A DNA stretch of 64,000 bases. Source: Agrobacterium larrymoorei. GTDB taxonomy: Bacteria > Pseudomonadota > Alphaproteobacteria > Rhizobiales > Rhizobiaceae. The position numbers and the translations under genes are program-made. How positions within the stretch are numbered: position 1 is the first letter of the stretch; each line of letters opens with the position of its first letter. Below are positions 1,245-61,535 of this stretch, in pieces. The stretch lies in assembly GCF_030819275.1 (NCBI RefSeq), contig NZ_JAUTBL010000002.1, forward strand, positions 2,533,501 through 2,597,500, written 5' to 3'. A model generated the notes under the pieces. That model made no database searches and was not told where the DNA came from. It saw only the letters and a list, made by a program, of their open reading frames with translations.

Positions 1245-1311
1245 GGCGTACTTCTCGATTTAAGGGTGTTTCGAGCAAACGTCGAAATCGGCCACTAAAG
1301 AGGACTCTGCT

Positions 1312-2290
1312 TTATCGTGACATTTCATAATTTGGCAAATCTCTCTCGCCCTCAGCAAAACCGCTCATCGATTGAATCCAGGCACTCTGGTTCGGCCAGC
1401 GATACTCAACCATTTGCGCTTCCGGCTTGATCACTACCGTGTAAAGCGTACCCAATCCCTCGTCATAGGCGGTGCGATAAAGCGGCTTTTGGTGAAAGCC
1501 CGGCAATGAACGAATCGAGTTGCATGCGCTCGGCTCTGAGCTTTGCCAAATGGTCTGCCCGTTCCGCTGTTTCCGACCACCGATTACCCTCCGGCCATTC
1601 CAGCGCCAGTTGATGGTTTGTGGCAATCGGCACTCGCCGAAATGCCATCTCTCGGTCTGGCGACAGATACGCAACCGCGTAGTCACCGCTTTTATCAAGA
1701 ATGACAACGTTGCTCACCATCTGCACTGGGAGCCTTTTAAGCGTCTCTATCGCCTGAATGGTTGTAGAGCAGACTTCGAGTACGTATCGTACAAGCAAAG
1801 GCGTTTGAAAGCCGTCCGCGCTGTAATCAAGCCTTCCGCCAAAGGTCAGGGCGACCGCTAATCCGTTGGAGTTCAAGCCGTCGAGACAGCCGATCCACCC
1901 TTCGGAAGTTGCAATAACATCCTGCTCCAACCAACGGCTATGAAGCACGGTGCCTTCGAAAAAGTCCGGTGTCAGATCATAATTGCGAACCAAAACTGGC
2001 GTTTCTGTCGGTGCAATCGCAACACTGCATCCCGCAATAACCGGCGGCGTGTTAAACAGTGACAACGCCCGTTGGGCAAGCGTATCGGGCTGGACGATGT
2101 TGCAGACCCGATCATAAAGGGGCAGGAGTTCAGGCATATACTGCCTGATCGCCCTTCGTGCAGCCTCTAACGAAGGGCGTGCATCTTCTCCTTGGCTGAG
2201 ATACCAATCGCGGTAGCGCGGCCAAGATTCATCAAACCGGTTCCGCCATTTTCCTGAAGGTTCCGGCTCAGAGATCGCAAAGATTTTCAT
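1312..2290 (-). pseudogene. C45-family acyltransferase/hydrolase, frameshifted
   Basis: This resembles the acyl-CoA:6-aminopenicillanate acyltransferase (peptidase C45) family of N-terminal-nucleophile enzymes, which cleave or transfer acyl groups on small amides. The probable nucleophile is the Cys of the AGCSVAI stretch (about residue 87), at the expected junction between alpha and beta parts, followed by VLVRNYD and an SNGLAVALTFGGR core. The frame breaks near 1499-1501: read normally the protein stops at 1463, but removing one G from a GGG run (minus strand) joins IAGF to HQKPLYRTAYDEG and restores about 325 residues down to 1312. ATG at 2290 is preceded by AAAGAGG; an upstream in-frame TTG at 2308 is less likely. 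It is either a true pseudogene or a sequencing error. Confidence 0.75.
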
Positions 2291-2526
2291 GAGACCTCTT
2301 TCGGCCAATCACTAGGACCATCTGCCGCTGCAGCATATTTTCTAAAGAATGCGATGAGAACCATCGCGGAGTTGGCGCCCGAATACTTTATGGAACGGGG
2401 CATTCTTGACATGGATACCCTCCAGATAATGTCGAACTTTAAGCCATGGCGGTTCGTGTCGCAATTGTCTCTTCTCAGGTCTGGAACCGTGTTTTAAAAA
2501 TGGACCATTCACCGATGCGGAGAACC

Positions 2527-2964
2527 ATGACAACAAAGATCAGACCTGCCGAACCAGCTGATGTCCCGGCACTATTTCACATTCGCACATCCGTACGCGA
2601 GAACCACCTCAGCCGGGAACAACTGGCCGGTCTCGGCATCACCGAAACCTCGATTGCCGAGATGATTTCCTCTGCACCCTGCGCTTGGGTCGCCGTTTCG
2701 GGTGATGAGGTCGTTGGATTCTCGATGATCGATATTACCGAAGGGTCTCTCTTCGCTGCCTTCGTTCTTCCCTCACATGAGGGCATGGGGTTTGGCGCGG
2801 AGCTTGTGCGTGTTGCGGAGAACGGGTTGTTCCGACACCATTCTGAAATCTGGCTTGAAACGGCCGAGAACAGCCGCGCCGCTGGCTTTTATAAGCATCT
2901 TGGTTGGGGCAACGAGGTTAAGGTTGAGGACGATCAAATCAGGCTGACCAAGGCGCGCCATTGA
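2527..2964 (+). CDS. GNAT-family N-acetyltransferase
   Basis: A 145-residue single GNAT domain. The acetyl-CoA loop is seen as LPSHEGMGFGAELV (about residues 80-93), followed by WLETAENSRAAGFYKHLGW, the usual beta5-alpha4 segment with the conserved Asn and Tyr. The substrate cannot be read from the sequence. ATG at 2527 is chosen because it follows GGAG; ATG at 2515 is in frame and possible, and the further extension to 2446 looks non-coding. It is a single gene between the broken C45 gene and the SDR on the opposite strand. Confidence 0.8.
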   Translation: MTTKIRPAEPADVPALFHIRTSVRENHLSREQLAGLGITETSIAEMISSAPCAWVAVSGDEVVGFSMIDITEGSLFAAFVLPSHEGMGFGAELVRVAENGLFRHHSEIWLETAENSRAAGFYKHLGWGNEVKVEDDQIRLTKARH

Positions 2965-3066
2965 TGTCTGCTGGCTGAAGAGGCGGCCATTGCTGTCTTC
3001 ACCAGAGGGATTGGCTTCGCAGCACCCGATCCCTTCGAGGTCGGGCACCGCGTCTCACCCTAAGCC

Positions 3067-3798
3067 TTAAACCTGCCGCAACCCACCATCGACGCAGAGT
3101 TCCGCTCCTGCGATGTAGCTGGCATCATCGCTCAACAGAAACAGTGTGGCCGCGGCCACTTCTGAGGGTTTTGCCATGCGCCCCAACGGGATCGGCGCGA
3201 CGATGGAGGCCCGCACGTCGTCCGCGACGGCGGCCATCATCTCCGTATCCGTCGGGCCGGGGGCGACGACGTTGACGCGGATGCCTTTGGGGGCGAGTTC
3301 GGCGGTCCAGGTTCGGGCATAAGAGCGCACAGCCGCCTTGGTGGCGGCGTAGGTGCCGTAGCCGGGGTAGCCGGCATGGGCACCGATCGAGCCGATGAGG
3401 ACGACCGAGCTACCCTCCGTCATCGCCGGTAGCGCAGCCTGAAGGCCGAACACCATGCCGCGCACGTTGACGTCGAAGTGGCGGTCGAAGAATTCCGGGG
3501 TGATGCCGGCAATCTGTGAATGTTCGGCAAGACCGGCATTCAGGACCAGCGTGTCGATACGGCCACGGGCTTTGCGAACGGTTTCGACAGCTGCGAGCAT
3601 ATCGTCGGGAGAGCTTGCGTCCGCAGAGATACCGACCGCGCCATGGCCGATGCCTTGCGCCGCCTTTGCGGCCTCCTCGCCTTTGCGGCTGGTGAGAAAG
3701 ACCGTTGCGCCCTCGGCAGCAAGCCGCTCCGCAATGGCGAGACCAATGCCCCTTGCGCCGCCCACGACCAGAGCCACTTTGTTATTCATGCGAGCCAT
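3067..3798 (-). CDS. SDR-family oxidoreductase
   Basis: A 243-residue classical short-chain dehydrogenase using NAD(P)H. The nucleotide-binding motif GGARGIG is at residues 13-19, LNAG near 85, the catalytic Ser in IGSIG, and the YxxxK pair in YAATK. The C-terminus VDGG is typical. The substrate is unknown. ATG at 3798 follows AAGGAA. The gene is transcribed away from a HxlR regulator across 182 bp, the usual arrangement in which the HxlR protein represses an adjacent oxidoreductase in response to electrophiles or aldehydes; that link is inference. Confidence 0.88.
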   Translation of the reverse strand: MARMNNKVALVVGGARGIGLAIAERLAAEGATVFLTSRKGEEAAKAAQGIGHGAVGISADASSPDDMLAAVETVRKARGRIDTLVLNAGLAEHSQIAGITPEFFDRHFDVNVRGMVFGLQAALPAMTEGSSVVLIGSIGAHAGYPGYGTYAATKAAVRSYARTWTAELAPKGIRVNVVAPGPTDTEMMAAVADDVRASIVAPIPLGRMAKPSEVAAATLFLLSDDASYIAGAELCVDGGLRQV

Positions 3799-3928
3799 CG
3801 TAGTTCCTTTCAGGAAAGCATTTCCAGCAAACGTGTGCTCGGTTTTGCGCCCGGAAATGCGTCAAACAAAAACGAGTGCACTTCAGGGGAACTCGTGTTC
3901 ACCCAAAATTGCTCTCAATGGTCTCACC

Positions 3929-3955
3929 ATGATATACAGTGGATATCTGATATCA
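3929..3955. promoter_or_regulatory. Candidate HxlR operator
   Basis: In the divergent SDR/HxlR intergenic region lies a cluster of GATAT repeats including the perfect 8-bp palindrome TGATATCA (3948-3955) and a nearby GGATATC. It sits about 25 bp before the HxlR start. An autoregulatory operator is plausible but unproven. Confidence 0.35.
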
Positions 3956-3980
3956 ATTACGCACCTGGAATAGCCTAGAT

Positions 3981-4373
3981 ATGGACGAGTATACCGACCT
4001 GGAAACCCTCTCTCAGCAGGCGCTCTGCGATATGCCCAAGGTGCGCCCGGTGCTGGACAAGATCGCCGACAAATGGACGATCCTGATCCTGACGGTGATC
4101 TGCCCCAAGCCTTCGCGCTTCAACGAAATCAAGCGACGTCTGGACGGCATCACCCACAAGGCTCTGGCCGATGCCTTGAAGAGACTGGAGCGCAATGGCC
4201 TTGTCACGAGGACGGTTCTGCCAACGCAGCCGATTGGCGTGGAATATGCCATCACGCCGCTCGGGCATTCCCTGCGCGAACCTTTCGAAGCTCTATGCGC
4301 CTGGGCGGCGGCCAATGGCGACAAGATCGAGGCGGCGATGAAAACCTATGATGGCGCGAAAGAGCGTCGGTGA
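3981..4373 (+). CDS. HxlR-family transcriptional regulator
   Basis: A 130-residue winged-helix protein of the HxlR type. The N-terminal CDMPKVRPVLDKIADKWT stretch and the motif RFNEIKRRLDGITHKALADAL are characteristic, with a Cys at residue 16 in the position used by redox- or aldehyde-sensing members. The C-terminal wing YAITPLGHSL is intact. It is divergent from the SDR gene and probably controls it. The start ATG at 3981 has no strong Shine-Dalgarno sequence. Confidence 0.88.
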   Translation: MDEYTDLETLSQQALCDMPKVRPVLDKIADKWTILILTVICPKPSRFNEIKRRLDGITHKALADALKRLERNGLVTRTVLPTQPIGVEYAITPLGHSLREPFEALCAWAAANGDKIEAAMKTYDGAKERR

Positions 4374-4606
4374 CGGCTTCTGGGCAACCTCCCCAACTGG
4401 CGGCCCGTCAAACCGCTCGGTGCCCTCCTGAGCCGCCACTTTTGACCTCGCATCGCGCGTCTCGGCAGGCAGGCCTTCGACACAAAAACATTGAAGCTTG
4501 TGGCCCGACCCCATAAAGCCTGCTCGCAAACGGTCTCGATGCTGCGATAGCCGATCCCGGATCAGGGAAGCGCGCCGCGAGCATGGAAGCGAACAAAGGA
4601 ACTGAG

Positions 4607-5005
4607 ATGTCGATCACGGTACAGAAGACAATCCCCGCACAGCGCATGCGCCAGTTCGACCAGATGGTCGATCGCTGGCTGGCAGAAGGCCCGATCAAGC
4701 TGGCAACGAATGCGACGATCACCGCGATGGACAATGCCGGCATCCCGAAGGAGGAACAGGCCGCGATCATCGAGGACCGCGACATCATCATGCGATACAA
4801 TATGCGCCTCGGCGTCATCAGCGAAGTTTTCGCGCCCGCCATCGAGAAGGCGGTGGGTTCATCCCGCTCGGGAAGCGAAGCGCAGGACGAGATCGCAAGG
4901 TTGATCGTCACGGCCATCGGCATCCGTCAGAGCGATGACAGCGAATTGGTGACATTCACATTCGCAAGTCAGGCTGAAGCGGATCTGTTCGATCAGTCTG
5001 TCTGA
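4607..5005 (+). CDS. Hypothetical protein, mostly helical
   Basis: A 132-residue soluble protein I do not recognise. It is predicted mainly helical, has no signal peptide or membrane segment, and is acidic toward the end (SDDSELVTFTFASQAEADLFD). ATG at 4607 is chosen because AAAGGA lies 6 bases upstream; an in-frame ATG at 4583 has no such site. The 233 bp upstream (4374-4606) show no gene or clear signal. It stands alone between the HxlR gene and an HNH gene on the other strand. Confidence 0.6.
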   Translation: MSITVQKTIPAQRMRQFDQMVDRWLAEGPIKLATNATITAMDNAGIPKEEQAAIIEDRDIIMRYNMRLGVISEVFAPAIEKAVGSSRSGSEAQDEIARLIVTAIGIRQSDDSELVTFTFASQAEADLFDQSV

Positions 5006-5056
5006 GTCCATTGGTGAGGGAGGCTATCGGGTCCGCATTCGGCGCCCATTCACCGC

Positions 5057-5407
5057 TTACAACCTGCGGCCTCGGCCGAATGACTGCCGCGATTCCTTGG
5101 CGGAATCCGCAAAGCCCGGTGGCTTGTTTTTGACCCAGGTGACGAAGGTCTGCACAGCCGGGTCTTCCAGAATGGCCTCGATCGTAGAAAATTTCTTGGC
5201 GAGTTGGGCATCGGTGAAGATCGAATGGATCTGGTCGTGGCAGATCCGATGCAGACAGACGGTTTTCTTTCCACCCTTGCTCTTGGGAACGAGATGATGC
5301 TCGTCTTTCTGGTCGTCCGGAATGATGCGCTCGCACAGCGGACAGATCACCGGCTCCGGCGTCGGCTCATCCCATGACGCAAACTCATCCCTGTTCTTGC
5401 GGGCCAT
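5057..5407 (-). CDS. Small HNH-type zinc-binding protein
   Basis: A 116-residue protein with an HNH-like core: CPLC at about residues 22-25, then EHHLVPKSKGGKKTVCLHRICHDQIH. The paired Cys would hold zinc, and the HH/CHDQIH part fits the beta-beta-alpha metal site of HNH nucleases. Small stand-alone members of this family are widespread and mostly uncharacterised, so nuclease activity is inference. ATG at 5407 follows AGGAAAG; an upstream in-frame start at 5464 lacks support. Confidence 0.75.
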   Translation of the reverse strand: MARKNRDEFASWDEPTPEPVICPLCERIIPDDQKDEHHLVPKSKGGKKTVCLHRICHDQIHSIFTDAQLAKKFSTIEAILEDPAVQTFVTWVKNKPPGFADSAKESRQSFGRGRRL

Positions 5408-5779
5408 GACTTGATCTTTCCTGCTATGGATTCGGATGCTGCCCGCTAAGGCGCCTTGCGCCACTTTTGACGCATCGAGCTTTCCGACGCGAATATGACG
5501 ACGTGCCTATGACTAGCACAAAACCGTCAAAACCGCATCGCCTGTTTTGGCGCGTCTGATCCGTCCTTCTCCATCAGTCGAAATCCGCCGGCATTGCAGA
5601 TCACGCGCGCAGTGTGTCCGCAACCGGAGCATTGGCATAACCATGGCCCAGGCCGCGCTCATGCTTCAGTATATGAACACACATAAATGTGATCGAGACC
5701 ACACAGGCAACCTGCTCCAGACAGTGTATGCAACCCATTGGCGAAGCCAATATCATGATTTTAAACGGCTTCAGGGGGA
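5408..5779. other. Intergenic region without recognised gene
   Basis: These 372 bp separate the divergent HNH and PAS genes. Short open frames on both strands lack ribosome binding sites and family resemblance. I see no RNA gene; promoters for both neighbours must lie here but none is clear. Confidence 0.5.
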
Positions 5780-6298
5780 ATGTGTGGGACTGCCATGGAG
5801 ACAATGCAGAGGCGCCTGGTCAAAAATCTGTTGGAAGGCGGGGGATTTTATTCCTGGTCATTGGCAACGAACCTGCTGACAGGTGATCTGGCCTTCGCGC
5901 AGATATACGAGATCGATCAGGACGACCTCGCCAAGGGTATTCCGGTCGAGTCCATACTCGAAAGAATCGTCGAGGAAGACCGTCCGCGCCTCGCCGCCCG
6001 CATCCATGATGTCATCCTTGGCGGCACACCCTTTGTCTCGCCCTATCGGATCTATTGTGCCGATGGACAGGTGAAGTCTCTTCTAAGCATGGGTTCCTGC
6101 GCCAGGGACGCCGATGGTGTGCCTTCGGTCTATTCGGGTGTCGTGCTTGTCGAAAGGGAGATTGGCGCGAATTCCGGGGCTGAAGGGCTCGAATTGCACA
6201 TCGGCGCTGCAATCGATCTGGCGAAGACGAAGAAGTTGGAACTGACGGAACGGTACCTGTCCTCTGCGCTCAGATCTCTCTCGCCCGGCGGCTCATAA
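5780..6298 (+). CDS. PAS-fold sensory protein
   Basis: A 172-residue protein with one PAS domain at roughly residues 25-130. It has the beta-strand pattern of PAS_3 domains (GGFYSWSLATNLLTGD, then EDRPRLAARIHDVILGGTPFVSPYRI) and no effector domain except a short C-terminal helix. It may be a stand-alone sensor. It faces the kinase/receiver pair convergently. The start is uncertain: ATG at 5780 lies directly after a GGGGG run, and in-frame ATGs at 5795 and 5804 are alternatives. Confidence 0.65.
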   Translation: MCGTAMETMQRRLVKNLLEGGGFYSWSLATNLLTGDLAFAQIYEIDQDDLAKGIPVESILERIVEEDRPRLAARIHDVILGGTPFVSPYRIYCADGQVKSLLSMGSCARDADGVPSVYSGVVLVEREIGANSGAEGLELHIGAAIDLAKTKKLELTERYLSSALRSLSPGGS

Positions 6299-6380
6299 GA
6301 CCAATACGAAGCCTGCGCGGACGCGTGATGATCGTCCAGGCGGCTGGGTCAGCCCTGATCCTTACCTGGGGTGCAGCACT

Positions 6381-6749
6381 TCACGTCGAGAGTTTGACGA
6401 GAGACGAAAGGACTTCCCGCTCCGAATATGGCTTGCCGACGAAGCCAACCGGCTTGGATGCCTGCGCAAGCGCGCGGGTTCTTTCGTCCAGATTCGCGCT
6501 GACGAAGAGGGACGGGACATCCCAGCGATTGCGGAGCACCGCAGCCGTCTCGACGCCGTTCGTTCCCCGGGCAAGATTGACATCCATAATGGCGACGTCG
6601 ACGGCTCCATCGACCTTCTCGGCGAGTGCGATGGCCTGAAGCATGTCGGATGCCTGACCGACGACGGTGTGCCCCGCGTCGACCAGCATGTCCTCAAGGT
6701 CCAGGGCCAGAAGCATTTCATCCTCGACGATCATCACGCGCAGCGGCAT
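6381..6749 (-). CDS. Receiver-only response regulator
   Basis: A 122-residue CheY-like receiver with no output domain. Acidic pocket residues are in VEDE, the phosphoacceptor Asp in AIMDVNL, the Ser of LFVSAN and the Lys of GFVGKPY. ATG at 6749 follows GGAGG by 7 bases. It overlaps the end of the upstream kinase gene by 16 bases, so the two are probably translationally coupled and act as a pair. Single receivers often shuttle phosphate or inhibit a kinase; which applies here cannot be told. Confidence 0.85.
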   Translation of the reverse strand: MPLRVMIVEDEMLLALDLEDMLVDAGHTVVGQASDMLQAIALAEKVDGAVDVAIMDVNLARGTNGVETAAVLRNRWDVPSLFVSANLDERTRALAQASKPVGFVGKPYSEREVLSSLVKLST

Positions 6750-8143
6750 TGAGGAGCCTCCACCGGGAATGTTATCATCCATGAACTCCGACCGTCTGGG
6801 CGCGAGATGGTGCCATCGATCTGGCTCGCCATGCTGGCGACCAGGCGTTCTGACAATTCGCTGGCTGGCGACGCAATCTCATCGCCGATAATGCTCAACA
6901 CGTACCGGTCAGGCGAACTCCGTTTCAAGGCCACGCGAATCCGGTCGCCACCGCTGCGGTGCTGCGGCACATCATGGACAAGCTCGCTGACGATCACGGA
7001 GACGGGAATCGCGCGTTCGGGGGGAAGGCTGATCTCATCGACGTCGATTTCAATCCGCTCTCCTCCGGCAACGGTCATGTCTCTGCAAAGCTTGTCGAGA
7101 TGTTCGGCCATGTTCACGGCCAGCGAGTTCTGATCCCGGTAGAGACCTTCATGCACGGATATGATGGCACGGACACGCGAAATGGCGCGATCGAAAGCCT
7201 GGGCGACCGCAGGCTCTTCCAGACGGCGGGCCTGAAGCCGCAATGTGCTGATCACCAGTTGCAAACTGTTCTTGACGCGGTGGTTCACCTCGGCAAGCAA
7301 GAGATCCTTCTGCGCGACGAGATCGCTCTTCTCTTCAAGCGCCGATGAAAGCGCCGCCTCGCGTTCCCGGTCGGCGGTCACATCCATCAGGACGCCGATC
7401 ATCCTGATCTTGCCGGTCGATGTCCGAAGAACTTCGCCGCGCGAAGCGACGTGCCTCACAGCATCTCCATTGATAATGCGATAGTCGAAGTTGATCACCG
7501 TATGGTCGGGCGATGCGATGGCTGAGGCAACTTTCTCACGAACGCGCTCCAGATCCTCTGGATGCATCTTTGCGAAGAACGGTGCCGCGACCGGTCCACC
7601 CTCTCCCGGTTCGAAGCCGAACATCACATCGGCAGCGCCGCTGCGACGCCAGAGATCTGTCTCGGGTTCGTACTCCCACGATGCTAGATCGGCAGCGTGG
7701 AGGGCAACGCGCAGACGCGCATCCGCTTCCCGCGTCTTCAGCACACTTTCTGTCACGTCCACCGGACTCTGGATGATGAAGGCGGGCTTACCATCGACGC
7801 CCGCGACGGGCGTGTGGACAGGTGTCCAGAACCTCTGCATGAACCCGCCGCCTGGCTGCGGGATGTCATATTGAATGACCGCCATCTCATGCGGATTTCC
7901 AGTTGCCAGCACGTGACGCAGAGACACTTCCAGAGGGCCTTGCTCGACCGTTCCGGCGGCATCGGGATTTTCCGGAAACGCCTCCAGAATGGACCGCCCC
8001 ACGATGTCCTCGAGCGTACGGTCCGTCAGCGCCAGATAGGCGTTGCTCGCCGCAACGATGACGAGATCAGCATCGAGTATGAGATAGGGTTGAGGCATCC
8101 CTTGCACTATCGCGACAAGATCAGTGGAGGTCAGGATATGCAA
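6734..8143 (-). CDS. HisKA_2 sensor kinase, degenerate ATPase domain
   Basis: A soluble sensor kinase of about 469 residues with two PAS domains (about 10-135 and 150-275) and a HisKA_2 dimerisation domain, EVNHRVKNSLQ, with the phosphoacceptor His at about 288. The C-terminal HATPase region is abnormal: the N box reads ELVHDVPQH where the family has ELVTNA, and the DNGxG motif is replaced by IIGDEIASP. ATP binding is therefore doubtful. There is no membrane segment. TTG at 8143, 11 bases after GGAG, puts the first PAS domain at the N-terminus as in relatives; the longest frame opens at ATG 8260. Confidence 0.82.
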   Translation of the reverse strand: MHILTSTDLVAIVQGMPQPYLILDADLVIVAASNAYLALTDRTLEDIVGRSILEAFPENPDAAGTVEQGPLEVSLRHVLATGNPHEMAVIQYDIPQPGGGFMQRFWTPVHTPVAGVDGKPAFIIQSPVDVTESVLKTREADARLRVALHAADLASWEYEPETDLWRRSGAADVMFGFEPGEGGPVAAPFFAKMHPEDLERVREKVASAIASPDHTVINFDYRIINGDAVRHVASRGEVLRTSTGKIRMIGVLMDVTADREREAALSSALEEKSDLVAQKDLLLAEVNHRVKNSLQLVISTLRLQARRLEEPAVAQAFDRAISRVRAIISVHEGLYRDQNSLAVNMAEHLDKLCRDMTVAGGERIEIDVDEISLPPERAIPVSVIVSELVHDVPQHRSGGDRIRVALKRSSPDRYVLSIIGDEIASPASELSERLVASMASQIDGTISRPDGRSSWMITFPVEAPQCRCA

Positions 8144-8524
8144 GAGGGATGGTTCTCCAGGGTGGTAGCAGTATGTTTGTGACGAAAATCGAAAGTCTTT
8201 CAGTCGAGGGACCGACCAAGAACCAACACCGACAACGGCCGGCAGGCGGAAAAGTTTCATCAGGATCCGCTTTTTATTTGGTCGATTCCGTCGTTTCGGT
8301 GCCTCGCCTATGCACGGATCTGATCAGGTTCCCGTCACCGAACGCTTGTGACCCGAAAGGACGCTCCCGATAATCGCCAAGATCGTCGAACGACCCAATC
8401 GCGTTGGCTACTTGAACACAAGTCCCGGGCTGTAAGATGTCGCCCACCAGAATAGGGTCTAGGATTCTTGTTTTCGCGCTTCTAAATGAGGCCCCGGTAA
8501 AATAAGCCGTAACCTGAGGTGCCC

Positions 8525-9370
8525 TTGAAGAAGATCAAATCGTCCTTCGTCGCGAAGACCTTTCTCGTTTGCTTCGTCAGCGTCCATGTGCCGCTGATAG
8601 CACTTGCAGTCTATCTGGCGTTGGGGTTCCAGCCAGGCACGTTGTCGGTCCTTCTTCTCATCCTCGGCGCCACTCTGGTCGGCACGGCCCTATGCCTTTT
8701 CGCGATCTGGCGGCTAATCCGGCCCCTCAACCTCCTGGCGGACGCTATGAGGCGGTATCCGGAGGACAAGGGAATCCTGAGGCTTTATCCGAAATCCCGT
8801 GACGAAATCGGCACCGTGACGGATATTGCGCGTTCGACGCTCTCGCAGGTCGAGAATTTGACCAAGCAACTGAAGCATCAGGCGATGACGGATTTTCTAA
8901 CAGGGCTCGGCAACCGCAGAGCGCTGATGGAGCAGATGCCGATCATTCGCGCCAAGGCCGCGCGCCCGGAAGAAGCGGTGTCGCTCATCCTCTTCGATCT
9001 CGATCACTTCAAGCGCATCAATGACGAATACGGACACGATGCTGGCGACAGCGTTTTGATGGCAATCGGCGAAGCGGTGAAGGATCACCTGCGGCCCTAC
9101 GACTACGCCGCAAGAATGGGTGGCGAAGAGTTCTGCATCGTCCTGCCAGGCGCCGACCTTGCAGCCGCCGAAACGGTTGCGGAACGCCTGCGCCGCGCCG
9201 TGGAAAGCCGCGTCGTCGAACCATTGCCAGAAGGCCGCATCACCTGCAGTTTCGGCGTCGCGCAGGCGCGCCCGAATGAGAGACTGCAAGAGCTGCTTCT
9301 GCGCGCCGACGCAGCGTTGTACACGGCCAAAGACCGGGGTCGGAACCTCGTGGTTCGGGCGGAGCCTTAA
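8525..9370 (+). CDS. Membrane-bound diguanylate cyclase
   Basis: A 281-residue protein that should make cyclic di-GMP. Two membrane helices (about 10-32 and 40-62) are followed by a HAMP-like linker and a GGDEF domain from about 125. The active site reads GGEEF, and RPYD five residues upstream is an intact RxxD product-inhibition site. The DxLTGLGNRR and FDLDHFKRIND motifs are complete. TTG at 8525 is preferred since GAGG lies 5 bases upstream; GTG at 8519 overlaps that site. The 381 bp between the kinase start and this gene hold no recognised gene. Confidence 0.85.
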   Translation: MKKIKSSFVAKTFLVCFVSVHVPLIALAVYLALGFQPGTLSVLLLILGATLVGTALCLFAIWRLIRPLNLLADAMRRYPEDKGILRLYPKSRDEIGTVTDIARSTLSQVENLTKQLKHQAMTDFLTGLGNRRALMEQMPIIRAKAARPEEAVSLILFDLDHFKRINDEYGHDAGDSVLMAIGEAVKDHLRPYDYAARMGGEEFCIVLPGADLAAAETVAERLRRAVESRVVEPLPEGRITCSFGVAQARPNERLQELLLRADAALYTAKDRGRNLVVRAEP

Positions 9371-9413
9371 AAGGAAACTTCCGCTGGTCGGCGCATGCCA
9401 ACGGTCTCCACCC

Positions 9414-10058
9414 TCAGTTGGATAGGCTAGAAACCGCCTGCACCGTCCCCGCCAGCCGACGAACGTACACCTGCGTCTCACCTTCATTTGAAGCAACACG
9501 CAAACCATCACCAGACGCCATCGTTTCCATCTCCGCTGCATCGATACGCGAGGCGATGCCGAGGCATTTGGCGTGGGCTTCTTTTGCTGTCCAGCGGGTG
9601 ACGAGCGTGTCGGGAGAGGCACCGTGAAGGGCCAGCCATTCGCTGCGCGTAAAGCTGTCCTCCGGTGGCGGCTCGGCATCGATGGGTTCGATATCCACGC
9701 CGATGGGGGACCGGCTGAGACCGATCAGGCAATGGGGGAAACGGCCCGCAACGCTGATATGCCAGTCGGGTGGATGGAGGATTTGCGGCGCACCGAACTC
9801 GGTTCTGCCGATGATGATCTCATCCGGATGCGAGCCTGTGAGCCGCGCCAGAAGAACCTTTGCCAGACGTCGGCGCAACGCCCGCATGCCCGCCTCCGGC
9901 CTGGCTGCCAGATCCTGCCTGTCGGCGGCGGAAAGTGCAGCACCGCCCGCCAATGTCTCCGTCTCGGAGCTGTCGAGGCGCAGATACCACGCCACCGGCG
10001 CATCGCCGGTGGGTGTTGTCAGATCGTCTGCGCCGGAAAGCCAGACGATCTCGCTCAT
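9414..10058 (-). CDS. 4'-phosphopantetheinyl transferase (Sfp type)
   Basis: A 214-residue enzyme that transfers phosphopantetheine from CoA onto a carrier-protein serine. The family motifs IGVDIEPI (about residues 115-122) and RWTAKEAHAKCLG (about 155-167) are present with their metal-binding acidic residues. The ATG at 10058 overlaps the stop of the upstream synthetase gene in an ATGA, so the two are coupled. The obvious substrate is the carrier domain of that synthetase. Confidence 0.9.
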   Translation of the reverse strand: MSEIVWLSGADDLTTPTGDAPVAWYLRLDSSETETLAGGAALSAADRQDLAARPEAGMRALRRRLAKVLLARLTGSHPDEIIIGRTEFGAPQILHPPDWHISVAGRFPHCLIGLSRSPIGVDIEPIDAEPPPEDSFTRSEWLALHGASPDTLVTRWTAKEAHAKCLGIASRIDAAEMETMASGDGLRVASNEGETQVYVRRLAGTVQAVSSLSN

Positions 10059-13000
10059 GCGCTGCGCACGGGCTGGGCGGGAGACCCTTCCCATGAGGTG
10101 CCCGCCGGCAGCGTTTCGCCCTTCATCACGACGGATAGATCGCCGAGTTGTGCATCTTCGCCGATTTCGGCATCGTAGAGCACGATGGCGTAGGAGCCGA
10201 TCACGGCGCGGTCGCCCACGGTCACACTGCTCACCTTCATCACCCGGTCTTCAAAGAGATGGGTCTGCAGGCCGGAGAACTCGTTCAGCGCTACCTCGTC
10301 GCCGATGCGCACCAGATCGTGCTCGGTGACGTCGGTCGTGTCGATGAAGCAATCGCGGCCGATCTTGCAGCCGAGCAGACGCAGATAGGCCGAGATCCAC
10401 GGCGTGCCGCGCAAGGGCTGCAAAAGGTTCGGCACCGCGAGGTTCTCATACGTGGCCGTCACCAGTTCAGTGCGCCAGACGAAGGTGCTCCACAGCGGCT
10501 TGGTCGTCGGCTTGTAGCGCCCCATCACCAGCCATTTCAGCGCAACGACCGAGAGACCCGAGGCCAGCGCGAAGCCGATATAGAGGAAGGGGAAGACGGC
10601 TGCGATCAGCGCCTGGCTGTCATCGTAATCCTGAATATCCCCGACGATGGAGAAGAGGATGCTGAAGAAGGCCAGGAACAGGGTCAGCGGCAGGATCACG
10701 CGCATCGCCTCGATCGACAAACGCATGGCGACGAGTCTTGGCCGTGGGTTAAAACGCGCACCCTCATCGAACAGGCCGACGGCCTGGCGCACGGGCAGCG
10801 AAATCGGCGGCGAGCCGAACCATGTGCCATCCGGCTTTTCCGCTCCGCCATCCGATGGCGGCTTGGAAAGAACGCCGATCAGCGTACCATCGGCAATCTT
10901 GGCACCCGTCGGCAGCACGGCGGAATTGCCGATGAAGGAGCGGCGACCAATGCGTGTATGGGCAAGCTCGATGATGCCCGGCTCATGGCGCGCCGCGCCG
11001 AAGACCACGCCATCGGCAATGAAGCTTTCCGGCCCGATATCGACAAGATCGGGCACGATCTTCGCGGCGGTGGAAATCTCGGCGCGTTTGCCGATCCTGA
11101 CGCCAAGCGCGCGATACCAGGGCAGCACGTAAAGCGTGGCATAGATCGGGTGAAGCAGTGCCAGCGCCAGATCCGTGACCTGCTGGACGAACCAGAAACG
11201 CAGATAGAACCAGCTATGGATCGAGTAGCGTCCGGGCCGCACCGGCCCGAGGATCAGGCGCTTGGCGAAGACGGTCAGAACGCACATCAACACGATATAG
11301 GTGAGCGCCAGGAACGGCGAAATCAGCAGGTAGGAATAGCCATCGGTGTTCCAGTCGATTTCGATCATCGCGATCAGACCGGGCGCAATCGGCAGGATGG
11401 CGACCACGGGAAGAAGGGCAGCGGCGACAAACAGACCGACGCCGACCAGGAAGCGACGCAGGAAGCCTGCCTCGTCATCGCGCCGGGCAACACGGCCCGT
11501 GGCGGCGCATTTGGCGGGAGAGCCGTTCCAGCTTTCGCCTGCCGGGATCGACTGGTTCATCGGCAGCGAAGACAGGTCTTCAAGTGCAGCGGCATCGCCC
11601 ACGACGCAATTGCGCCCGATCACCGCCATGGTACCGATGGAAGCACTGCGGCCGATCTTGACCGGGCCAAGGCGCAGCAGACCACGCTCGACGGAGCTGG
11701 TGGCAAGCATCGCATAATCGCTGACGATCGCATCATCGCCGATGCTGACGAGATCGGCGGTGTCGATGGCAACGGTGCCGATGAAGGCACGGCGACCGAT
11801 CCTGGCACCCAGCAGCCGGTAATAGAAACGGATCATCGGCGTGCCGCTGAGATAGGGTGTCGCGATGATATCGGAGAGGCGGCGCACAAACCACCAGCGC
11901 AGATAATAGCTGCCCCATAGCGGATAATCGCCCGCCTTGTAGCGGCCGATCACCAGCCATTTGACCAGGATGGCAAAGACCATGCCGAGCGGTGGAATGA
12001 GAATGAAACTCAAACCGCTCAGCAGCAGCGCCGAGACGCGGCCGAAGTCTTCGACGAGATAGGTATAGGCCAGATAGGGGAAGAACCATTGCAGCCCCGC
12101 CACCGCATAGATCGGCACCAGCGCGATGGTCTGCAGCGTCCAGCAGAGACGCTTCTGGAACGTGCTGACACGGTGGAAAGGCTCGAGGGCTGCGCTTTCC
12201 GCCATCACCCGTTCGCCAAGGCGTGCGGCAAGCCGGCGGATCGTCGGCGCGGCATAGAGATCCTGAATGGACACGCCGGAGAGGCCGGGCGCCTTGCGCA
12301 TGGCCGACGCCAGACGCGCAGCTTTCAGCGAATGGCCGCCCAGATCCTCAAACAGATCGTCTTCGACAGACACCTTCTGCGGCGCGAAAGCCTCCGACCA
12401 GATGGCATGCAGCTGGATTTCGAGCGGCGTTTCAGGCGCGACAGCCGCGCGATCCGAGGAGGCCACCACCACCGGGCGCTGAAGCGCCTTGCGGTCTACC
12501 TTGCCGGAGGCGGGCAGCGTCGGCAGCGCATCGAGGATCTGGTAAGCGGCGGGCCGCATATAGTTCGGCAGGCGGTCGGCCACCCGCTTGCGGGCAGCGT
12601 CGATATCGATCACCGCACTGCCACGCGCCACGAGGAAGGCGGCGAGAAGCTCCGAGCCATCATCATCCCGGAAGAGATGCACCACGGCCTGCGCCACAGC
12701 GGAATCCTCGGCAATCACCGCTTCGATCTCGGCAAGCTCGACGCGGAAACCACGGATCTTCACCTGCGTATCGATGCGGCCCATGAATTCGATATCGCCG
12801 ACGGCATCGAGGCGCACGAGATCGCCGGAGCGATAAATCCGGGCAGGAAACCCATCCGGCCCGTCGAAGGGCGTCATGACGAATTTGTCTGCGGTGAGAT
12901 CGGCACGGTTCACATAGCCGGAACTGACGCCCGGCCCGCCGATGACGAGCTCGCCTTCGGCACCGGCATTCACCGGCCAGAGCTTGTCGTCGACGATCCA

Positions 13001-14071
13001 GGCGGTATAGCCCGGCAGCGGCCGGCCGATGGTGACGCGGCGGCCCGGCTGCACCTCCGTCCATGTGGCCGTGACCGTCGTTTCTGTGGGGCCATAGGTG
13101 TTGAGAATGCGAAGACCGGGGCGCGCCCAGCGGTTTACCAGATCCGGCGGGCAGGCTTCGCCGCCGAGATTGACGATCCGCAGCGTCGGAAGCTCGGTTT
13201 CCACGAGCGTGAAGAGCGATGGCACCACGTGCCAGACGGTAACGCCTTCCTCGGCCAGCGTAATCGCCACATCCGGGCCCGCCTTGTGCAGGGCTTCGTT
13301 GGCGACCAGCAACTCCGCACCGGCGGAAAAGGCGCTCCACATGGTCTCGATCGACATGTCGAAGGCGACGCTGAAGCCGCCGAACACCTTGTCCGTATCT
13401 TCGACCGCCAGGATCGCGCCTTCGGCCCGCAGAAAATGGCAGGCGCTGCGGTGCGATATCATCACCCCCTTGGGGCGACCGGTGGTACCGGATGTGTAGA
13501 TGATATAGGCGAGATCGTCGGGAGACGCGCCGATTTCGGCCCGGGTGATCGGCAGCGCATCCTGTGCTGCGAGATCGCCGAGCGTCTCGTTGACCACCAA
13601 GGTCTGCACCCGCATGGCACCGGCGCGTTCCGCATCGGTCACGATCAGTGTGGCGCCACTATCCTCGGCAATGAAGTCGATACGGTCCTGCGGGTAGGTC
13701 CAGTCCACCGGCACATAGCAGGCGCCGGCCCAAAGGGTGCCGAGGATCGCCATATATTGATCGAGACCGCGCGGCAGGCAGATCACGACGCGGTCGCCGC
13801 GTCTCACCCCCATGGTCTGAAGCGTGCGGGCAAAGCGAATGGCGCGTTCAGCCAGCTGCCCATAGGTCAGCTCGGTCCGGCGGCTATATTCAGGATCGTT
13901 TCCCAGAAGCCGAAGCGCGCGTTTGGACGGATAGCGCTTGGCCGTCTGCTCAAAAATTTCCTGCAACATCTCGTCGCGGGCGTAAGGTTCATCCTCTCGG
14001 ACGGGAAGCGACGGGGCAATCGGCGCAAAGACGGTCAATTCCAACGGCCTTTCGGCCACATTCCGATCCAT
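10055..14071 (-). CDS. Pls/PosA-like NRPS with membrane hexapeptide repeats
   Basis: A 1338-residue single-module synthetase. The adenylation domain spans about 30-530, with YTSGTTGRPKG near 190, NTYGPTE, YRSGDLVRL and LPASGKVDRKAL near 520. The carrier domain serine is about residue 580 in EDLGGHSL. From about 640 on there are three similar units, each made of two membrane helices, a KWLVIGRYK-like linker and a left-handed beta-helix hexapeptide domain. No ordinary condensation or thioesterase domain is visible. This is the layout of epsilon-poly-lysine synthetase (Pls) and its relatives, which polymerise one amino acid at the membrane. ATG at 14071 follows GGTGA. A GCGGCAT/ATGCCGC hairpin (14093-14110) lies just upstream in the leader. 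Confidence 0.88.
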   Translation of the reverse strand: MDRNVAERPLELTVFAPIAPSLPVREDEPYARDEMLQEIFEQTAKRYPSKRALRLLGNDPEYSRRTELTYGQLAERAIRFARTLQTMGVRRGDRVVICLPRGLDQYMAILGTLWAGACYVPVDWTYPQDRIDFIAEDSGATLIVTDAERAGAMRVQTLVVNETLGDLAAQDALPITRAEIGASPDDLAYIIYTSGTTGRPKGVMISHRSACHFLRAEGAILAVEDTDKVFGGFSVAFDMSIETMWSAFSAGAELLVANEALHKAGPDVAITLAEEGVTVWHVVPSLFTLVETELPTLRIVNLGGEACPPDLVNRWARPGLRILNTYGPTETTVTATWTEVQPGRRVTIGRPLPGYTAWIVDDKLWPVNAGAEGELVIGGPGVSSGYVNRADLTADKFVMTPFDGPDGFPARIYRSGDLVRLDAVGDIEFMGRIDTQVKIRGFRVELAEIEAVIAEDSAVAQAVVHLFRDDDGSELLAAFLVARGSAVIDIDAARKRVADRLPNYMRPAAYQILDALPTLPASGKVDRKALQRPVVVASSDRAAVAPETPLEIQLHAIWSEAFAPQKVSVEDDLFEDLGGHSLKAARLASAMRKAPGLSGVSIQDLYAAPTIRRLAARLGERVMAESAALEPFHRVSTFQKRLCWTLQTIALVPIYAVAGLQWFFPYLAYTYLVEDFGRVSALLLSGLSFILIPPLGMVFAILVKWLVIGRYKAGDYPLWGSYYLRWWFVRRLSDIIATPYLSGTPMIRFYYRLLGARIGRRAFIGTVAIDTADLVSIGDDAIVSDYAMLATSSVERGLLRLGPVKIGRSASIGTMAVIGRNCVVGDAAALEDLSSLPMNQSIPAGESWNGSPAKCAATGRVARRDDEAGFLRRFLVGVGLFVAAALLPVVAILPIAPGLIAMIEIDWNTDGYSYLLISPFLALTYIVLMCVLTVFAKRLILGPVRPGRYSIHSWFYLRFWFVQQVTDLALALLHPIYATLYVLPWYRALGVRIGKRAEISTAAKIVPDLVDIGPESFIADGVVFGAARHEPGIIELAHTRIGRRSFIGNSAVLPTGAKIADGTLIGVLSKPPSDGGAEKPDGTWFGSPPISLPVRQAVGLFDEGARFNPRPRLVAMRLSIEAMRVILPLTLFLAFFSILFSIVGDIQDYDDSQALIAAVFPFLYIGFALASGLSVVALKWLVMGRYKPTTKPLWSTFVWRTELVTATYENLAVPNLLQPLRGTPWISAYLRLLGCKIGRDCFIDTTDVTEHDLVRIGDEVALNEFSGLQTHLFEDRVMKVSSVTVGDRAVIGSYAIVLYDAEIGEDAQLGDLSVVMKGETLPAGTSWEGSPAQPVRSA

Positions 14072-14205
14072 GAAGTCACCAAAATATGTGAAGCGGCATC
14101 TCAATGCCGCCGCTATACATCATTTGGAATTGCGCCGAAAGAAGGGGCAATAAAAGGCAGAATGCAGAATTTTTGGGCAGGCACGATCACTCTCGCGATT
14201 TGCTC

Positions 14206-14412
14206 TCAACCCCGCCGCTGATGGCGCGCTCTCAGCCAGAATACCAGGAAGAAAGCCAGCACCGCCGCAACATCGAAAGCCGCCGCGAGCCAGACCGAAT
14301 AGGTATTGGCAAGCCACAGCGTTACCGTCGGCACGATGTAGAACAGAACCCCGAAGCCGAGAATGATGACGATGGCGGCAATGGCGGCCGACTTCGTGTC
14401 CTTGCTGCTCAT
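14206..14412 (-). CDS. Small two-helix membrane protein
   Basis: A 68-residue protein with two hydrophobic helices (about 9-30 and 38-60) and a basic tail RARHQRRG. I do not recognise a family. The ATG at 14412 overlaps the stop of the upstream acetyltransferase in an ATGA, so it is probably co-translated with it. It lies 134 bp before the NRPS start on the same strand, so it could be co-transcribed with it; no terminator is visible between. Confidence 0.65.
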   Translation of the reverse strand: MSSKDTKSAAIAAIVIILGFGVLFYIVPTVTLWLANTYSVWLAAAFDVAAVLAFFLVFWLRARHQRRG

Positions 14413-15104
14413 GCGGCAGCCCCGGCGGAAAGACCGGCACGGATGTCTTCCAGCTTGCGCTTTTGCGTTCCGTCTTCCTTGAAGTTGTCCGGCGAGAGCC
14501 ACGTCTCGAAGGCCTCGCGGATCACCGGCCATTCGCTGTCGATGATCGAGAACCAGGCCGTATCGCGATTCTTGCCCTTTGAAATCATATGTTGGCGGAA
14601 GACGCCCTCGAAGGTGAAGCCATAGCGCTTGGCCGTCGCCTTCGACGGCTCATTCTCATTATGGCACTTCCACTCGTAGCGGCGATAACCGAGATCGTCG
14701 AAGACATGCCGCGCCATCAGATAATGGGCTTCGGTGGAAAGCGGCGAACGCTTCATCTTCGGCCCATGGGCAACCGACCCCACTTCGACCACGCCATTCT
14801 TCGGATCGGGCCGCATATAGGTCGCCATGCCGACGACCTCCTTTGTCGCATTTTCGATGAAGACCAGCGTCACCCATTGAAGGCTCGTCGCCATGCCTTC
14901 GATCCAGTCGCTGAAGGCGGCCGCATGCGGGAAGGGATCGTTGGGAAAATACTTGATCAGATCATTGGTGCCGAGCCCGCCAAGGGCATCCCAGATCGCC
15001 TGCTGGTGCGCCTCCCGATCAAAGGGAACGGCGGTCACGAACCGGCCTTCAAGCGTCACCGGCTGCGGTGCTGGACATCCTTTGAACTGGCTGAGATCGC
15101 GCAT
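14409..15104 (-). CDS. RimJ/RimL-type GNAT acetyltransferase
   Basis: A 231-residue acetyltransferase of the RimJ/RimL group (Acetyltransf_3). The N-terminal PVTLEGRFVTAVPFD and the core RRYEWKCHNENEPSKATAKRYGF match the group, where the Asn-rich stretch precedes helix alpha4. Such enzymes acetylate protein N-termini, amino acids or drugs; the substrate is unknown. It overlaps the small membrane protein gene by 4 bases. The gene is followed downstream by the NRPS operon in the same direction, so an acylation role there is conceivable but unsupported. Confidence 0.83.
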   Translation of the reverse strand: MRDLSQFKGCPAPQPVTLEGRFVTAVPFDREAHQQAIWDALGGLGTNDLIKYFPNDPFPHAAAFSDWIEGMATSLQWVTLVFIENATKEVVGMATYMRPDPKNGVVEVGSVAHGPKMKRSPLSTEAHYLMARHVFDDLGYRRYEWKCHNENEPSKATAKRYGFTFEGVFRQHMISKGKNRDTAWFSIIDSEWPVIREAFETWLSPDNFKEDGTQKRKLEDIRAGLSAGAAA

Positions 15105-15141: not shown

Positions 15142-15303
15142 AGAGCGTTTCCTTGTCAAATGGAAACGTTCTGCCGGAGCAGGTTTTCGTCAGGGCAAAG
15201 GCGATTGGCGAAGGGCATACCCAAAGGTACGGTCAAGCCGATCGCCTTTGAGCCTGGCGGAAAGGTGCCCGGCAGAGCGTCTCCATTTGACAAGGAAACG
15301 CTC
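15142..15303. repeat. Palindromic intergenic element, 162 bp
   Basis: The ends are an inverted repeat: 15142-15168 begins AGAGCGTTTCCTTGTCAAAT and 15277-15303 is its reverse complement with one mismatch. An inner pair, GCAAAGGCGAT and ATCGCCTTTGAGC, extends the fold. The same outer motif recurs in short form at 41080-41112, so this is a dispersed family, probably of the rhizobial intergenic palindrome type. Confidence 0.8.
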
Positions 15304-15353
15304 TCACCGGTCATCAAAGACAACCGACCTCTGATATGGAATAAATTGATCGA

Positions 15354-61458: not shown

Positions 61459-61535
<77 letters not shown>

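Follow-up and report, generated by a model that had tools for sequence, protein, structure and literature searches.

What does a non-ribosomal peptide synthetase make when it carries a single adenylation domain and a single carrier domain, and is encoded beside a phosphopantetheinyl transferase (PPTase)? The question is raised by a two-gene locus of Agrobacterium larrymoorei, lying in a 64,000-nucleotide stretch of contig NZ_JAUTBL010000002.1 (positions 2,533,501 to 2,597,500; assembly GCF_030819275.1, 4.88 Mb in 2 contigs) that is termed the window throughout. Here, we find that the locus adds a member to a known family, and is not a new kind of system. Its synthetase belongs to the Pls/PosA family, has predicted membrane helices and carries a pocket like that of PosA; the PPTase gene overlaps the synthetase gene. 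The predicted product, probably delta-poly-L-ornithine, is likewise known. The synthetase is laid out as follows, with residues numbered from the ATG (raw domain-scan positions minus 11).

10055..14071, minus strand: Pls/PosA-family synthetase, 1,338 amino acids, ATG start (reading frame, TIGR02353, purifying selection)
12518..13954, minus strand: adenylation domain, AMP-binding at residues 40-386 and AMP-binding_C at 448-518 (Pfam)
12218..12412, minus strand: carrier (PP-binding) domain with attachment Ser581 in GGHS (Pfam and alignment)
10076..12139, minus strand: terminal domain (TIGR02353) with three pairs of predicted membrane helices, a left-handed beta-helix unit following each pair

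The order of domains, with one adenylation domain (residues 40-518), one carrier domain with its serine (554-618) and then the terminal domain (645-1332), fits the Pls/PosA family. Pfam matches comprise AMP-binding, AMP-binding_C, PP-binding and Hexapep, plus DCTN5 at a score under its cut-off; at E<=0.001 the Pfam scan detects neither a condensation nor a thioesterase family. The terminal domain scores 948 bits against the NCBIfam model TIGR02353 ('Pls/PosA family non-ribosomal peptide synthetase'; cut-off 423.1) and covers the profile end to end (1-695 of 695). Segments predicted by a hydropathy scan fall into three pairs. When the terminal domain is modelled with AlphaFold2 (mean pLDDT 90.1, pTM 0.90), helix pairs alternate three times with short-strand beta-helix stretches, giving by prediction six membrane helices in three pairs and three beta-helix units. 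An earlier reading of the window from its letters alone (the sequence-only reading) had proposed just this arrangement, including three membrane-plus-hexapeptide units and the lack of a condensation or release domain, and both parts hold. Sequence search recovers no solved structure for the terminal domain, its 50 matches at E<=1 being weak and to hexapeptide-type proteins, and PADLOC finds no defence family for the synthetase.

Two characterised enzymes provide the points of reference. PosA, the delta-poly-L-ornithine synthetase of Acinetobacter baumannii (PMC10522769; record L070), has its domain order in common with the window enzyme. Pls, the epsilon-poly-L-lysine synthetase of Streptomyces albulus (PMC8117764), is likewise built from an adenylation domain, a carrier and six membrane helices between acetyltransferase-like C1-C3 domains. 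A single transfer of loaded ornithine to a lipid, sugar or small molecule, with no polymer formed, would suit the first terminal unit, whose fold resembles that of single-step acetyltransferases; it is nevertheless improbable, given that the enzymes that PMC10522769 lists as having this terminal domain make homopolymers, and that no gene for a conjugation partner is kept beside the synthetase.

The substrate is best addressed through the ten residues of the adenylation pocket.

13070..13360, minus strand: pocket residues D238 M239 E242 H281 N301 G303 T325 V333 T334 (alignment to PosA)
12500-12502, minus strand: tenth pocket residue, K524 (alignment to PosA)

The crystal chain of PosA aligns without gaps across the pocket stretch, which stops at code position 8, and full-length PosA supplies all ten positions (D217 M218 E221 H260 N280 G282 T304 V312 S313 K502). 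The window code, D-M-E-H-N-G-T-V-T-K, which the sequence-only reading had derived by eye, is reproduced against the crystal chain (positions 1-8) and L070 (all ten), and is identical at 9 of 10 positions to the D-M-E-H-N-G-T-V-S-K of PosA, given in PMC10522769 as 'D M E H N G T V S K'. The PosA match supports the earlier suggestion that Glu at position 3 marks a pocket for basic amino acids. It overturns the accompanying statements that the rest of the code matches none known and that the polymer could be undescribed, because the pocket is that of a characterised enzyme save for position 9; an undescribed pocket was rejected for the same reason. Since the pocket equals that of PosA at nine of ten positions, the likely product is delta-poly-L-ornithine, a polymer already described, which PosA makes as delta-linked chains of 7-12 ornithines (PMC10522769).

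In PMC10522769, E221, T304 and S313 of PosA are placed near the delta-amine, with S313 within hydrogen-bonding distance of it, and M218 is the chain-length determinant. The window enzyme has D238, M239, E242 and T325, and a hydroxyl at position 9 (T334), as in a PosA-type pocket, and Met239 where a Pls-type pocket has Ala. This methionine bears on a rival reading, in which the product is epsilon-poly-L-lysine or a polymer of mixed lysine and ornithine. The family is the same, and PosA also binds L-lysine in a crystal (PMC10522769), but lysine-polymer enzymes, Pls among them, have Ala at position 2, and PosA gained lysine activation through M218A (PMC10522769). The Ala-type code DAESIGTVVK occurs in a Kitasatospora homologue, and the pocket stretch of the window scores 94 bits to the adenylation domain of epsilon-poly-L-lysine synthase (7wew) versus 136 bits to PosA. 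A lysine-containing product is unlikely.

The sole pocket difference could itself shift the substrate, to D-ornithine or a modified ornithine, and so yield a new polymer: Thr334 replaces a serine that lies near the delta-amine, and D-ornithine is also bound by PosA in a crystal (PMC10522769). However, threonine retains the hydroxyl, and DMEHNGTVTK looks like the standard form, as no other code is so frequent in the rows examined (122 of 153) and recurs in more distant rows of 43-48% identity (L013, L014, L018, L021). A shifted substrate is accordingly given a small probability. The 153 rows are the window's own, 32 loci and the 120 listed proteins of 5,692 matches, and some of these listed proteins may duplicate loci; five of the 122 duplicate counted contigs or the window itself (L027, L028, L030, L031, L032). 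The remaining codes are DIECNGTVTK (15), DVEFNGTVAK (5), DAESIGTVIK (4) and seven single others, among them one row without a pocket and one poorly aligned. The nearest named synthetase among the matches listed, from Agrobacterium cavarae, is 98.7% identical. In a quick tree of 48 rows (representatives below 80% identity, with nine partial, duplicate or poorly aligned rows, L023 and L026-L033, left out and three plasmid-record rows added), all DMEHN-type rows, PosA among them, fall in one 42-row clade (SH-aLRT 99).

Other pockets occur among the homologues. The DIECNGTVTK rows (for example P0094, P0096 and P0100) and DVEFNGTVAK rows (for example P0097 and P0103) have about 61% identity and are nested among DMEHNGTVTK rows in the tree; since neither code is found in the sections of PMC10522769 consulted, both groups may use other substrates. 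Plasmid-borne Pls/PosA synthetases of Rhizobium sp. CCGE531 (L071) and Azospirillum ramasamyi (L073) have the pockets DLEDIGTVVK and DLEDIGSVVK, respectively. The Rhizobium pocket fits the pattern 'D L E D I G T V T/V/I K', which PMC10522769 names for Rhizobia and others without giving a substrate.

How are bonds formed in a family that has no condensation domain? A candidate residue lies in the last beta-helix unit.

10259..10261, minus strand: His1271 in QTHLFEDRVMK, third unit, proposed catalytic residue

Among the three terminal units the third alone has this histidine. It is conserved in 144 of 145 rows, and PosA has the QTHLFEDR motif with the same proposed catalytic histidine. We therefore propose His1271, from its position and conservation, as the putative catalytic residue of the terminal domain. 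A broader proposal is tentative, and we hold it at somewhat less than even odds: a self-activating two-gene poly-ornithine cassette would move between alphaproteobacteria, and isopeptide bonds would form at only one of three pseudo-symmetric acetyltransferase-like units, via His1271 of the family-wide QTHL[FY] motif, with units one and two acting as scaffold.

The second gene of the pair encodes the presumptive activating enzyme.

9414..10058, minus strand: PPTase, 214 amino acids, with GVDIEP and WTAKEAHAK stretches (Pfam, alignment)
10055..10058, minus strand: ATGA overlap of synthetase stop and PPTase start (reading frames)

The GVDIEP and WTAKEAHAK stretches are what we take to be PPTase motifs. 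The ACPS domain PF01648 is matched at 37.4 bits (cut-off 25), and a domain of the ACPS superfamily in a protein longer than AcpS marks the enzyme as Sfp-type; the four-base overlap was as the sequence-only reading had it. In the published purification PosA was treated with Sfp (PMC10522769), so the need for such an enzyme is reasonable, and the adjacent PPTase would load the neighbouring carrier domain. Genomes G001 and G017 each have just one PF01648 match whose open frame exceeds AcpS size, namely the adjacent gene. A PPTase homologue lies directly downstream of the synthetase in 9 of the 26 loci given (one of which, L019, ended too soon to show it, and in another, L067, the match is weak), and in 9 of 13 alphaproteobacterial loci of at least 59% identity. 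Among plasmid records, Rhizobium sp. CCGE531 and Sphingomonas parapaucimobilis have the synthetase followed directly by an annotated PPTase, as in the window; the Sphingomonas pocket is the window's DMEHNGTVTK, whereas that of Rhizobium is DLEDIGTVVK. No annotated PPTase stands beside the A. baumannii, Kitasatospora or Azospirillum genes in gene tables that are incomplete for plasmids. PosA itself is reported as a single-gene operon, and L070 has no annotated PPTase within 3 kb downstream. The Sphingomonas locus (L069) differs from the window pair in a third gene, a GNAT acetyltransferase (9990-11101) that overlaps the PPTase and perhaps modifies the product.

From these features we infer a course of catalysis that would begin with attachment of phosphopantetheine to Ser581 of the carrier domain by the PPTase. 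The adenylation domain would activate L-ornithine, with D238 contacting the alpha-amine, E242, T325 and T334 the delta-amine, and M239 setting chain length, and the ornithine would be loaded as a carrier thioester. The terminal membrane domain would then link ornithines repeatedly, carboxylate to delta-amine, at a single site around H1271 of the third beta-helix unit. The polycation would be released and perhaps exported and, as has been proposed for PosA, may act against fungi or on biofilms.

Is the locus maintained, and where does it sit?

14114..14140, minus strand: conserved element TTTCGNCGCAATTCNAAATNATNTATA of the leader that precedes the synthetase (alignment of 7 leaders)
1246..14209, no strand: a stretch of about 13 kb that G021 lacks at the equivalent site, where 10 bp separate the flanks

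TIGR02353 is matched above cut-off in 10 of 61 genomes searched (the window's own included) and in 7 of 37 of the same genus. Four comparison genomes without such a match (G021, G009, G015 and G016) were picked from 39; the genes flanking the region (approximately 99-1248 and 14210-15104 of the window) are separated by 10 bp in G021 and by 0.9-1.5 kb in the others. G029 and G001 carry their copies at the same site as the window. In G006, G007, G011 and G017 the synthetase lies without these flanks and with differing downstream genes, and DNA similarity starts 73-81 bp upstream of its start. The 27-bp leader pattern has one match each in the three carriers searched (G000, G006 and G017) and none in G021, with no further site in these four genomes at up to 3 mismatches. 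Against the four other-context copies, the synthetase has 88.5-90.7% protein identity despite differences of 40.1-49.5% at third codon positions (7.1-9.3% at first and 3.8-4.7% at second), so the observation is not chance and the gene is under strong purifying selection. The patchy distribution might suggest a silent or decaying remnant, but such a state is very hard to reconcile with open frames, an intact pocket and carrier serine, the scarcity of second-position changes and a conserved leader.

Several points weigh against the delta-poly-L-ornithine assignment and the self-contained pair. The synthetase shares 37.8% of its residues with PosA overall and 41.8% within the adenylation domain, so the transfer of pocket specificity is a prediction, and position 9 is Thr rather than Ser. 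The 153 rows are nearest homologues, which biases the count of 122 towards the window's own code. Pockets do change within the 42-row clade, since DLEDIGTVVK, DIECNGTVTK and DVEFNGTVAK rows belong to it too, and PosA joins the Rhizobium DLEDIGTVVK plasmid row, where long branches meet and the program issued a warning. An adjacent PPTase was not found in 4 of the 13 close loci (L006, L009, L024, L060) and is thus not always needed. The PPTase is also less conserved (58.9-78.0% identity), with second codon positions differing by 19.8 and 24.8% in the two of the other-context genomes that have it. Finally, the 20 neighbouring frames scanned gave no recognisable polycation exporter and no clear degrading enzyme.

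Neighbours in the variable stretch include a GGDEF protein, a histidine kinase, a response regulator, a PAS protein, an SDR, HxlR and GNAT proteins and a member of the acyl-CoA:6-aminopenicillanic acid acyltransferase (AAT) family; none of the scanned frames was recognised as clearly polycation-making. The AAT-family protein (1463-2308, minus strand) we presume could be an amidase. Genes beside the synthetase-PPTase pair are matched only in the nearest relatives (L004, L005), with two exceptions: common families (SDR, GGDEF) match at 29-37% in a few other loci, and the SDR/HxlR stretch (3064-4339) also lies near the G017 copy. The ends of the variable stretch bear no direct repeat of at least 14 bases, and the sole tRNA of the window is at 61459-61535. 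A repeat of about 165 bp at 15142-15304, which also matches itself on the opposite strand, has many dispersed copies in this and related genomes.

The new details are the overlapping PPTase, the location at a variable site with a patchy distribution, and the candidate active-site His1271. A literature search found no paper on poly-L-ornithine synthetases in Alphaproteobacteria or naming TIGR02353; these zeros are weak, as hyphenation hid even the PosA paper from one search. The NAPAA clusters in the passages of PMC9964534 consulted are reported from genera other than Agrobacterium, and the group described here may already be listed in the supplementary table of the PosA paper. In the literature consulted, poly-ornithine synthesis is shown for one A. 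baumannii enzyme only. In alphaproteobacterial relatives a PosA-like pocket recurs, and an activator gene often adjoins the synthetase; the synthetase and PPTase offer a compact unit for testing the poly-ornithine reaction in a laboratory host, and the predicted role of His1271 provides a concrete target for how this family may form bonds without a condensation domain.
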